This document shows positions 28,676-36,315 of a stretch of DNA of 56,044 nt, one piece after another; the first letter of the stretch is position 1, and every line of letters starts with the position of its first letter. Under the pieces are notes generated by a model. It was not told the DNA's origin, did not search any database, and was given only the letters and a program-made list of their open reading frames with translations. Origin of the DNA: Bacillota bacterium (GTDB lineage: Bacteria > Bacillota > Bacilli > Alicyclobacillales > SLC66). A program made the translations under genes and the position numbers. The stretch lies in the NCBI GenBank assembly GCA_021805735.1, contig JAJZEE010000008.1, forward strand, positions 1 to 56,044, written 5' to 3'.

Positions 28676-28832
28676 AACGTTCATCTCCAAGGAAACCTGT
28701 CACACTGGGATAGACATCCATGACGCTTCGCGTCACCAACAACCGGGAAGAAAAAGCGCCTGCGGCGATTTTCCGGGATAGAAAGATTGAGATCCGAACT
28801 GCCTTTTGTGGATAACCCGTTCCGTCGAAAGT

Positions 28833-32935: not shown

Positions 32936-34636
32936 TCAGACGCTGCCCTGGGCCACCGCCGACGTCTGCAGGGGCATGGCAGGCGCGTAGGCAGAACCGA
33001 CTGGTTCTGTAACTACATCGCGCAGCAGTGAGCAGGACAGCACGTCCTCAAGACGGGAAGCCAACACAATGTCGACGTCACTCCACCGATGCAGGCGCTC
33101 CTGATCATTGTCCGAGGGGATTATAACCTTGCGTGCGCCCGCAAGCCGAGCCGCCTCCACCTTGGCGGAAACTCCGCCAACAGGTCGAATCGAGCCGTAA
33201 ATAGAAACCTCGCCTGTCATGGCTACGGTGTTGTCGACGGGGATTCCCGTCACTGCGGAGTAGATGGCAACAGCCATGCTGACTCCGGCCGACGGACCGT
33301 CAACCGGTGTGCCGCCAGGGAAATTCACGTGTACATCGTAGTCGGAGAGATTCACGGGCAGGCAGCGACGCAACGCGGTCACGACGTTGTCGATCGAACT
33401 GCGGGCGGTGCTTCTGCGCCGCAAAACACGCCCACCGCCCCCCAACTCCTCTTCGTCAATCACTCCTGTTACGGACACCGTGCCGTGACCGGGCGCTCTG
33501 GCCACTACCGCATCAGCCTCCACCTCAAGCAGCATGCCGGATGAGGGGCCATATACGGCAAGGCCATTGACCACCCCTACTTGCGGCCGTTCCGGAACCT
33601 TGCGCTCTGGACGCGGCGCAATCTGACTGCTGTGCACCACCCACTCCGCATCCTCGCGGGTGATCTCTGTACGCCTCTCCGTCAGCGCGATGCCAGCCGC
33701 AATCTGAACAACATTGACTGCTTCCCGACCGTTTACGGCATGTCTGGTGACGACATCAACCGCCGCCGGAGTCATCGCGAAGCGAATTTTCTCAGAGGCT
33801 CGCTGTACAATGACGGCGATCTCCTCGCCATTGAGCGGACGGAAAAAGATCTCCAGACAGCGTGATCGAATGGCCGGAGGAATATCTTGCGGACTTCTCG
33901 TAGTGGCTCCAACCAGCCGGAAATCCGCCGGCAATCCATTTTGGAACATGTCGTGAATATGCAGCGGTATGTTGCTGTCATCCGGATTGTAATAGGCGCT
34001 TTCGAAAAATACCCGACGATCCTCCAGAACCTTTAAAAGTTTGTTCATCTGAATGGGATGCAACTCGCCAATTTCATCGATGAATAAGACACCGCCGTGC
34101 GCCTTGGTCACGGCGCCCTGTTTCGGTTGCGGAATGCCCAGGACGCCCATGGCGCCCGCCCCCTGATAGATCGGATCGTGTACGGATCCAATGAGAGGAT
34201 CGGCGATCCCCCGTTCATCAAATCGGGCGGTGGCGCCATCGAGTTCGCAGAAGACCGCGTTTGCCAGAAACGGCGAACCTGGCGTCCGTTTGGCCTCCTC
34301 CAGAATGACACGGGCGGCGGCCGTTTTTCCAACGCCCGGGGGTCCATAGAGGATGACGTGTTGTGGGTTGGGGCCACAGAGAGCCGCCCGCAGCGTGCGC
34401 AACCCGTCCTCCTGTCCTATGATGTCCCCGATGCACGACGGCCGAGTTCTCTCTGACAATGGTTCAGAGAGTGATACAGTTCGCATCTTGCGCAACCGTT
34501 CCAATTCTCTCGTAGATTCCTTGTCCACCGCCACCCTGTTGTGTTGCTGGGAGCGCATCATGTTGAGAAAGTAGAGACCCACAATCCCCGCAAATATGAC
34601 CTGTACAATCGCTAGCACAAGCAGGCTGGAATTCAT
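32936..34636 (-). CDS. lonB: ATP-dependent protease LonB (membrane-anchored, forespore type)
   Basis: 566 aa. N-terminal TM helix (about 5-26), AAA+ domain with Walker [10 protein letters not shown] and L-F-I-D-E-I-G-E, then Lon protease domain: Ser in D-G-P-S-A-G-V, Lys in V-S-A-K-V-E-A. Lacks the LonA substrate-binding N-domain, as usual for LonB. In B. subtilis lonB is under sigma-F. ATG 34636 has GGAGG nine nt upstream. Confidence 0.95.
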   Translation of the reverse strand: MNSSLLVLAIVQVIFAGIVGLYFLNMMRSQQHNRVAVDKESTRELERLRKMRTVSLSEPLSERTRPSCIGDIIGQEDGLRTLRAALCGPNPQHVILYGPPGVGKTAAARVILEEAKRTPGSPFLANAVFCELDGATARFDERGIADPLIGSVHDPIYQGAGAMGVLGIPQPKQGAVTKAHGGVLFIDEIGELHPIQMNKLLKVLEDRRVFFESAYYNPDDSNIPLHIHDMFQNGLPADFRLVGATTRSPQDIPPAIRSRCLEIFFRPLNGEEIAVIVQRASEKIRFAMTPAAVDVVTRHAVNGREAVNVVQIAAGIALTERRTEITREDAEWVVHSSQIAPRPERKVPERPQVGVVNGLAVYGPSSGMLLEVEADAVVARAPGHGTVSVTGVIDEEELGGGGRVLRRRSTARSSIDNVVTALRRCLPVNLSDYDVHVNFPGGTPVDGPSAGVSMAVAIYSAVTGIPVDNTVAMTGEVSIYGSIRPVGGVSAKVEAARLAGARKVIIPSDNDQERLHRWSDVDIVLASRLEDVLSCSLLRDVVTEPVGSAYAPAMPLQTSAVAQGSV

Positions 34637-34770
34637 CCGCATCCCCCTCCGAAGCTCACATGTTTTACTAAGTATGGCCAGGGTTGCGAAGAGTTAAACG
34701 ATGATTCCAAAGCGCACTGCGGTCGGCATTCTCTCGTGTAAATCCGGATCGGCCCGCCATCCGGGCGCAC

Positions 34771-34800
34771 AAAAAAAGCTGCCGAAGGTTTCTCGGCAGC
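34771..34800 (-). terminator. Rho-independent terminator
   Basis: Eight-bp perfect stem (34778-34785 with 34793-34800), seven-nt loop, then seven U on the minus strand (34771-34777). It lies between the clpX stop and lonB, so it should end the clpP-clpX transcript. Confidence 0.9.
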
Positions 34801-34849
34801 CGGAGGGCCGGGCGGTTCGTCTATTCAGAGAATGTGTGTGCTGCGCCTG

Positions 34850-34932
34850 CTCGGCCGGGATCGTATGCTGCGCCGCTGCTCAAACACGGCTGTGCCGAAC
34901 TCGCCTCGGCGCAGCATACGATCCCGGCCGAG
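34850..34932. repeat. 26-bp perfect inverted repeat with 31-nt loop
   Basis: Arms 34850-34875 and 34907-34932 are exact reverse complements over 26 bp. The loop (34876-34906) holds a small CGGC-TGT-GCCG stem. Neither end carries a U-run, so it is not a classic terminator, and no gene frame crosses it. It sits about 100 bp downstream of clpX and 50 bp before the clpX terminator. Confidence 0.95.
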
Positions 34933-35034
34933 AAGGTTACACCTCATACTGGAGGCGCGGCAATAGCATTAAAGCATTCAGGCTGAGGTCTATTGCGTAG
35001 TTTCTTCTACGCCGTTTTCTCTACTTCGTTTTCT

Positions 35035-36315
35035 CTAAGCCGTTTCTTCTTTTTTCTTCTTCTTGCGTCCATCAGTCACCGGGCCGGAATCGACGACGAG
35101 CATCGGTTCTTCTCTGTTGACGACCGTTTCTCTCGTTACGATACATCGCTTCACGTCAGAACGGGCAGGCAGTTCATACATCACCTCAAGCATAATGCCC
35201 TCGATAATGGCCCGCAAGCCCCGTGCGCCGGTGTTGCGCTTGATCGCTTCCTTTGCGATCTCGGACAGCGCTTCATCAGCGAATTCCAGTTCCACGGAAT
35301 CCATGTCAAGCAACCGTTGATACTGTTTGACAAGCGCATTCTTGGGTTCGGTCAAAATCTGTTTCAGAGCTGCCTCGTCAAGCGCCTCGAGGGTCGTAAT
35401 GACAGGCAGTCGGCCCACGAACTCCGGAATCAGACCGTACCGCAACAAATCTTCGGGGAGAACTTTAGCCAGAATTTCCGAATCCTGCACTGGCGAACGC
35501 CCCTCTTCACTCGTGCCAAAACCAATCACCTTTTTACCCAGTCTGCGTTTGATTATCGGTTCCATACCGTCAAACGCTCCGCCGCAGATAAACAGGATAT
35601 GACTGGTGTCGATCTGAATAAACTCCTGGTGGGGATGTTTGCGCCCCCCTTGTGGAGGAACACTGGCCACTGTCCCCTCAAGAATCTTCAACAGCGCCTG
35701 CTGAACACCCTCGCCTGAGACATCGCGAGTAATCGAAGGGTTTTCCGATTTACGAGCGATCTTGTCGATCTCATCGATGTAGATAATGCCCTTCTCAGCC
35801 TTCTCCACATCGTAATCCGCAGACTGAATGAGCTTAAGAAGGATGTTTTCCACATCTTCCCCCACGTACCCGGCCTCCGTCAGAGACGTGGCGTCCGCGA
35901 TAGCGAAAGGCACGTTCAAAATCCGCGCGAGCGTCTGCGCCAACAGCGTTTTTCCGGAGCCGGTCGGACCAATCAGCAGGATATTGCTCTTTGACAACTC
36001 CACATCTTCGTTTTTTGCGCTCGTGTTGATCCGTTTGTAGTGGTTGTACACGGCCACTGCAAGCGATTTTTTCGCGCGTTCCTGTCCAATCACATAGGAA
36101 TCCAGGATGTTCTTGATCTCTGTCGGTTTCGGAATGTCTTTTAGTTCAAACTCTTCATCATCGCCGAGTTCCTCCTCGACAATCTCGTTGCAGAGTTCAA
36201 TACACTCATCACAAATATACACACCTGGACCTGCCACGAGTTTGCGCACCTGATCCTGGGTTTTCCCACAAAATGAGCACTTTAGCTGCCCTTTGTCGTC
36301 ATTGAACTTAAACAT
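35035..36315 (-). CDS. clpX: ATP-dependent Clp protease ATP-binding subunit ClpX
   Basis: 426 aa. N-terminal zinc domain C-S-F-C-G-K ... [11 protein letters not shown]+ with Walker A G-P-T-G-S-G-K-T and I-Y-I-D-E-I-D-K, pore loop G-Y-V-G-E-D, and the ClpP-binding loop I-G-F-G in V-I-G-F-G-T. The C-terminus is a Lys/Glu tail. Unfoldase feeding ClpP. 13 bp after clpP, SD GAGGAGGG. Confidence 0.98.

Follow-up and report, generated by a model that had tools for sequence, protein, structure and literature searches.

BOX elements of Streptococcus pneumoniae are modular intergenic stem-loop repeats with variable middle modules, and the repeat family treated here is likened to them, by description only, as modular intergenic stem-loops with a variable middle. 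The likeness to REP, BIME and REPIN sequences with RAYT lies in clustered, high-copy intergenic hairpin repeats that carry a short tag and are thought to be mobilised in trans; stems of the GTAG families measure 5-13 bp, with head-to-tail dimers absent or rare (PMC3733652), and some REP subclasses are atypical (PMC6006769). MITEs such as bcr1-bcr3, Correia/NEMIS and ERIC are similar in being ~70-160 nt long, non-coding and intergenic, with a strong hairpin and with filled and empty sites, and bcr copies are often transcribed within UTRs (PMC3446304). Ends of IS200/IS605 elements likewise have hairpins near both ends and insertion by a short tag, and the lagging-strand targeting described for these elements and their Y1 transposases in PMC6006769 is a strand preference that would fit. 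The inverted repeat behind clpX in a genome of the Bacillota is compared here with these systems and is regarded as probably a type A copy, decayed in part, of a hairpin-forming mobile repeat that is dispersed and non-autonomous.

The window, by which we mean the whole 56-kb stretch of DNA that was analysed (56,044 nucleotides), belongs to a genome of 3.76 Mb in 170 contigs (G000). Two 30-nt arms at 34846-34875 and 34907-34936, 97% complementary and 31 nt apart, exceed in length all others among the 16 inverted-repeat pairs listed for the window and are the sole listed pair with fewer than 400 nt between its arms. The plus strand of the window is the strand opposed to the genes at the repeat, near which lon, clpP and trigger factor genes are also found. 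The features are the following.

34907-34936, minus strand: 30-nt stem arm that comes first in the clpX sense, 97% complementary to its partner
34876-34906, minus strand: 31-nt loop with a small inner hairpin, the best-conserved part of the family, also found in two other genera
34846-34875, minus strand: partner arm of the stem, which comes second in the clpX sense
34852-34927, minus strand: match to covariance model R1, 98.9 bits, the copy being one of the model's own 32 input sequences
34821-34845, minus strand: conserved type A end that this copy retains, with the flanking CTA at 34821-34823, by alignment to other copies
34937-34976, minus strand: probable decayed other end of the unit, of uncertain extent, judged by eye against the consensus
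34777-34801, minus strand: terminator-like hairpin with a T-run on the clpX strand, outside the repeat, from the terminator scan
35035-36315, minus strand: clpX, the upstream gene (TIGR00382 equivalog, above cut-off)
32936-34642, minus strand: spore-type lonB, the downstream gene (TIGR02902 equivalog, above cut-off)
28707-28782, plus strand: type C unit of the same repeat system, between two divergent genes, 93% to the typed type C query

Inverted-repeat search and reading of the sequence bore out the perfect 26-bp stem (34850-34875/34907-34932) and 31-nt loop described in the sequence-only reading, and the repeat does lie, as that reading had it, between the clpX stop and a terminator, the terminator-like site at 34801-34777 being located beyond it on the clpX strand. 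A second terminator-like site is present on the opposite strand at 34995-35012, and shuffles yielded 0.7 such sites on average. The stem is indeed devoid of a U-run, as runs of four T adjoin it on neither strand, and it overlaps no called gene; a mechanical 99-aa ORF that spans it (34701-35000, plus strand) is not called by the coding-score gene caller. The 281-nt stretch with the repeat and the terminator has a folding z of -6.4, with 0 of 200 shuffles as good. Transcription presumably passes through the repeat, and a putative, incidental effect on the 3' end of the clpX mRNA is possible. In the relative G001 the same repeat occupies the orthologous clpX site with flanks ~96% identical, and the 18 stem pairs compared between the two genomes are all identical; it is inherited together with its flanks, neither empty nor swapped in G001. 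This orthologous copy is evidence against chance, in agreement with the earlier view that such a repeat is unlikely to be fortuitous, and, together with the family of copies described below, speaks against the assembly artefact that had been considered.

The full unit is a small, dispersed element of ~150 nt, non-coding by inspection, and on the gene strand is composed, in order, of a flanking TAG (CTA on the opposite strand), a small hairpin, a long stem (~20-30 bp) that bears a branched loop, and lastly an end resembling ...TTTTCCGGGATAG. These ends differ among copies and some copies are without one of them; a flanking CTA or CTG is frequent at both sides of the unit. Types A and B differ in stem sequence and in one base near the loop, and type C, of ~70 nt, has ends in common with A and B and two small hairpins with no long stem. 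The clpX copy is of type A and has kept the stem, the loop and one flanking CTA, its other end looking decayed. Adjacent units often form head-to-tail arrays, with one tight pair in opposite orientation (L092). A coding role was rejected: the type A gene-strand consensus gives by eye a frame of ~39 codons, in which the extra base of type B leads to a stop. Several companion sequences were also observed, namely a 22-nt hairpin that recurs (GAGATTTTGCTTCGCAAAACTC and close variants) beside A/B units at L046, L047, L049 and others, in many units coinciding with the short end hairpin or lying close to it, and is sometimes doubled in tandem; a divergent stem-loop type with a related loop at L021:863-939 and by the C units in L160, L161 and L163; and a short tandem repeat with a unit of ~21 nt following a type A copy in L019 (G000:C133).

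The search of the genome and its relatives for the arm sequence, which had been suggested earlier, yielded many copies in both. A 101-nt query from the clpX site gave 53 match rows in G000, some being reverse-strand self-matches, and 51 non-overlapping copies were counted in the 40 stretches drawn from these matches. When named genomes were scanned for an exact pattern, the 67 stretches obtained all belonged to JAJZCB ('Bacillota bacterium isolate JA1.bin52'). With a covariance model built from 32 copies, at least 81 copies were found in each of three genomes of the same genus, G000, G001 and G002 (81 of 81 scored candidates match), as well as 27 in G010 and 12 in G005, each from a further genus of the family; the remaining 54 of the 59 genomes of the order gave no match, in a search whose filters lose some weak matches. 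By DNA similarity, five of 61 genomes match, the own genome included, G021 through a weak 40-nt match only, and in genus g4 the repeat is present in one of three genomes. The type C query gave 45, 42 and 50 match rows in G000, G001 and G002, respectively, with 40 candidates scored in each, and no match in G005. A/B copies are mostly intergenic, 9 of 138 overlapping a called gene. A search of plasmids gave no match to the repeat, nor did a search of viral contigs with one 21-base pattern. Some contigs end within repeat copies, as at the L036 site in G001 (start of C94, end of C156) and at L050 (end of G000:C25), and hence the repeat may break up these assemblies and arrays may be longer than they appear.

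Sequence change in the stem is accompanied by maintenance of pairing. In an alignment of 32 sequences, which were chosen for stem formation and mutual difference and are therefore biased towards pairing, 19 of 22 stem pairs are changed on both sides, the cells with both-side changes numbering 91 as compared to 22.3 in shuffles, and slid controls giving 5 to 9 both-side-changed pairs; one divergent pick of 33 (L021) was left out before alignment, which also favours pairing. In several copies of G005 and G010 the arms do not resemble those of the genus but pair all the same around a similar loop, with L059 and L066, two of the four G005 copies first read, pairing poorly. Among 15 orthologous pairs of G000 and G001, the 270 stem pairs include 22 with a difference, and pairing is retained in 18 of the 22, G-T being allowed; these 15 remain from 23 orthologous pairs after exclusion of seven (four swapped, two half-swapped and one cut by a contig end) and the skipping of one of the other 16. 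Template switching could generate such covariation without selection. The conserved loop on changing arms makes some recognition of the folded strand conceivable, and with it the cruciform protein-binding site that the sequence-only reading had listed.

Comparison of sites among relatives revealed gain or loss as well as exchange of units. Type A sites of G000 are empty at L022 and L036 in G002 and at L047 in both G001 and G002, L047 being a complex site with remnants of other repeats, and the type C unit L176 of G000 corresponds to a clean empty site (L088) in G001. Seven more differences of approximately one C unit in length are located within arrays or beside other units, and single type C gains in arrays may reflect recombination rather than insertion. 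CTA, CTG or CTATCC borders the filled L022 (G001 copy), L036 and L176 on either side and occurs once in their empty counterparts, with CAG replacing CTG at L036; on these three sites, CTA could be either a target duplication or element-borne. Exchange is seen in four of the 23 orthologous G000/G001 pairs listed, where a copy classed A faces one classed B at the same site with alignable flanks, and some copies are hybrids, half A and half B, joined within the loop region, all of which fits recombination between copies. Plain inheritance accounts for many copies, among them the one at clpX. A second, unrelated MITE-like repeat of ~125 bp with near-perfect 16-bp terminal inverted repeats was encountered at L022:1119-1244 and L047:1690-1815 in G000; neither site has it in G001 or G002, but elsewhere G002 gives dozens of match rows. 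Separately, L035 (G000:C168) and L072 (JAJZCB) share ~1.7 kb around one copy at 100% identity, other compared sites of these two genomes being mostly ~94-97% identical, and this points to a recent exchange, to strong conservation or to faulty binning. The small nonautonomous element that the sequence-only reading had listed among its options is supported by the many dispersed copies, by the filled and empty sites and by the patchy distribution.

On the tests made here the repeat falls outside the REP/RAYT class, because there is no RAYT above cut-off in the four genomes searched, no GTAG at the hairpin foot and the order of nearly all adjacent units is head-to-tail. RAYT (NF047646) gave weak matches only and none over the cut-off in four of four genomes (G000, G001, G002 and G005), with one of 14 control genomes over the cut-off. 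The tetranucleotide GT[AG]G is absent from the hairpin foot, units instead carrying ATAG/CTAT at their ends, some bases away from the hairpins; adjacent units are nearly always head-to-tail and not inverted pairs, unlike the order given for REP and REPIN sequences, and the stem of ~20-30 bp is longer than in the GTAG families. Nor is the repeat a strict MITE, since its ends, TCCCGG... and ...AAAGT, are by inspection not inverted copies of each other, and it further differs from MITEs in the conserved loop with free arms and in the head-to-tail arrays. By inspection, the IS200 copies of G000 end differently from the repeat, and no units lie beside Y1 transposase genes at the 12 loci read (11 distinct places in four genomes, eight loci being in G000), one Y1 locus having a 17-nt match to units at E 0.02-0.04. 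Matches to Y1, a candidate mobiliser, occur in all five repeat-bearing genomes (in G010 partial only) and also in 8 of 13 repeat-less family members. A RAYT-driven REP is disfavoured by the RAYT search and the Y1 loci. A reverse transcriptase as obligate mobiliser is unlikely, as RVT_1 has no match in G001 and in G010, the latter 73% complete. Rfam returned only a tRNA match for the window, and nothing at gathering score for four loci searched at E up to 1. A literature search, mostly without subscription papers, found no recognisable description of the repeat family, which is weak evidence of novelty.

A further prominent property is orientation. Between co-directed genes, the gene-strand form lies with as against the genes in ratios of 34:2 in G000 and 49:7 in G001 by own gene calls, or 27:2 and 43:6, respectively, when one copy per array is counted, and these counts are not independent, the two genomes having many sites in common. 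Of the remaining A/B copies of G000 and G001, respectively, 5 and 13 lie between convergent genes, 3 and 7 between divergent genes and 5 and 4 where a stretch ends, while 2 and 7 overlap a called gene. Type C is less biased, 19:7 with the genes among 50 units, of which nine are mostly inside a called gene, the difference from A/B being marginal (p = 0.046), and the C unit of the window (28707-28782) is opposed to the prevailing gene direction. In 87 of 136 copies TTTT adjoins the stem base on the strand opposed to the genes, as compared to 8 of 136 on the gene strand, the clpX copy having it on neither, and hence a copy opposed to the genes would often be terminator-like in the gene's transcript, and its loss would give the bias. 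An RNA-level element, whose transcribed stem-loop would act in mRNAs (3'-end protection, processing or a loop-bound protein) and be kept and co-oriented for that purpose, would also produce an orientation bias such as the 83:9 with genes over G000 and G001, and would fit the covarying stem and conserved loop in three genera and the position of the clpX copy before a terminator-like site. However, at co-oriented tandem sites or arrays a terminator, by the scan used, follows the element in one of 74 (clpX), precedes it in four and is lacking in 69. In addition, the repeat is patchy within a genus, with units coming and going between close relatives, and no Rfam family is reached at gathering score, so that such a function is considered improbable. 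Terminators are scarce generally by the scan, occurring in 7 of 54 tandem spacers with A/B units, 1 of 16 with C and 13 of 147 without a unit, and a role of the repeats as replacement terminators was rejected, the frequency being no different (p = 0.43, A/B versus none).

The orientation of A/B copies also follows the leading direction given by third-position skew in 74 of 87 copies. This would fit a DNA-level site, for instance a protein-bound cruciform, with the repeat as a chromosomal binding site whose bias and spread are given by selection and whose loop is conserved on changing arms; skew and gene direction are, however, correlated (r = 0.81), no protein is known and the repeat is absent from most relatives, and we hold this explanation to be very unlikely. 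Copies opposed to both neighbours split 4:3 by skew direction, and among copies without two co-directed called neighbours (six with one neighbour unknown) 20 of 27 follow the leading direction. Replication strand as the sole cause of the bias was rejected on the same correlation and the 4:3 split; lagging-strand-template insertion is an alternative source of the bias that these data cannot separate from the loss of terminator-like copies. A clpX-specific regulator, despite the same copy with unchanged stem pairs at clpX in both genomes, is scarcely credible, as the same element is found at many other places and two genomes ~96% identical here are a weak test of conservation. For the same reason the purpose proposed earlier, a stabiliser of the clpX mRNA 3' end, is not upheld, this element adjoining many other genes; only position connects the repeat with clpX, to which it is not special.

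The dispersed mobile repeat is preferred because of the high copy number, the modular build, the CTA/CTG flanks, the empty sites and the arrays, and likewise because of the stem covariation, the exchange of stem types at fixed sites and the strong orientation bias. Against it stand the failure to find a mobiliser (no RAYT above cut-off in four of four genomes, no unit beside Y1 at 11 places) and the lack of terminal inverted repeats, and we read it as a REP/MITE-like repeat without the tested marks of either class. Mechanistically, an enzyme supplied in trans and reading folded single-stranded DNA, perhaps the lagging-strand template, may spread copies by insertion next to CTA, and copies whose T-tailed stem would terminate a gene's transcript would be lost; the clpX copy would then be carried passively in the 3' UTR, ahead of the terminator-like site. 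A single-strand insertion step is proposed tentatively and is on balance somewhat doubtful. Unlikely, yet worth stating, is a new non-autonomous class defined by a fixed branched loop and CTA-bounded ends, with a stem free to change as long as it is paired, a putative enzyme recognising the folded single strand and stems exchanged by recombination in the loop.

For clpX the finding is an ordinary one, and it cautions that a long perfect palindrome beside a gene need not be the regulator of that gene. Its importance is for the repeat family, which offers a well-sampled natural series of many copies in five genomes, with filled and empty sites and stem swaps, and which combines a covarying stem and a fixed loop without a recognised mobiliser, in hosts belonging to a little-known group of Bacillota. 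A loop-binding enzyme, if found, would be a direct test of spread without RAYT or terminal inverted repeats.
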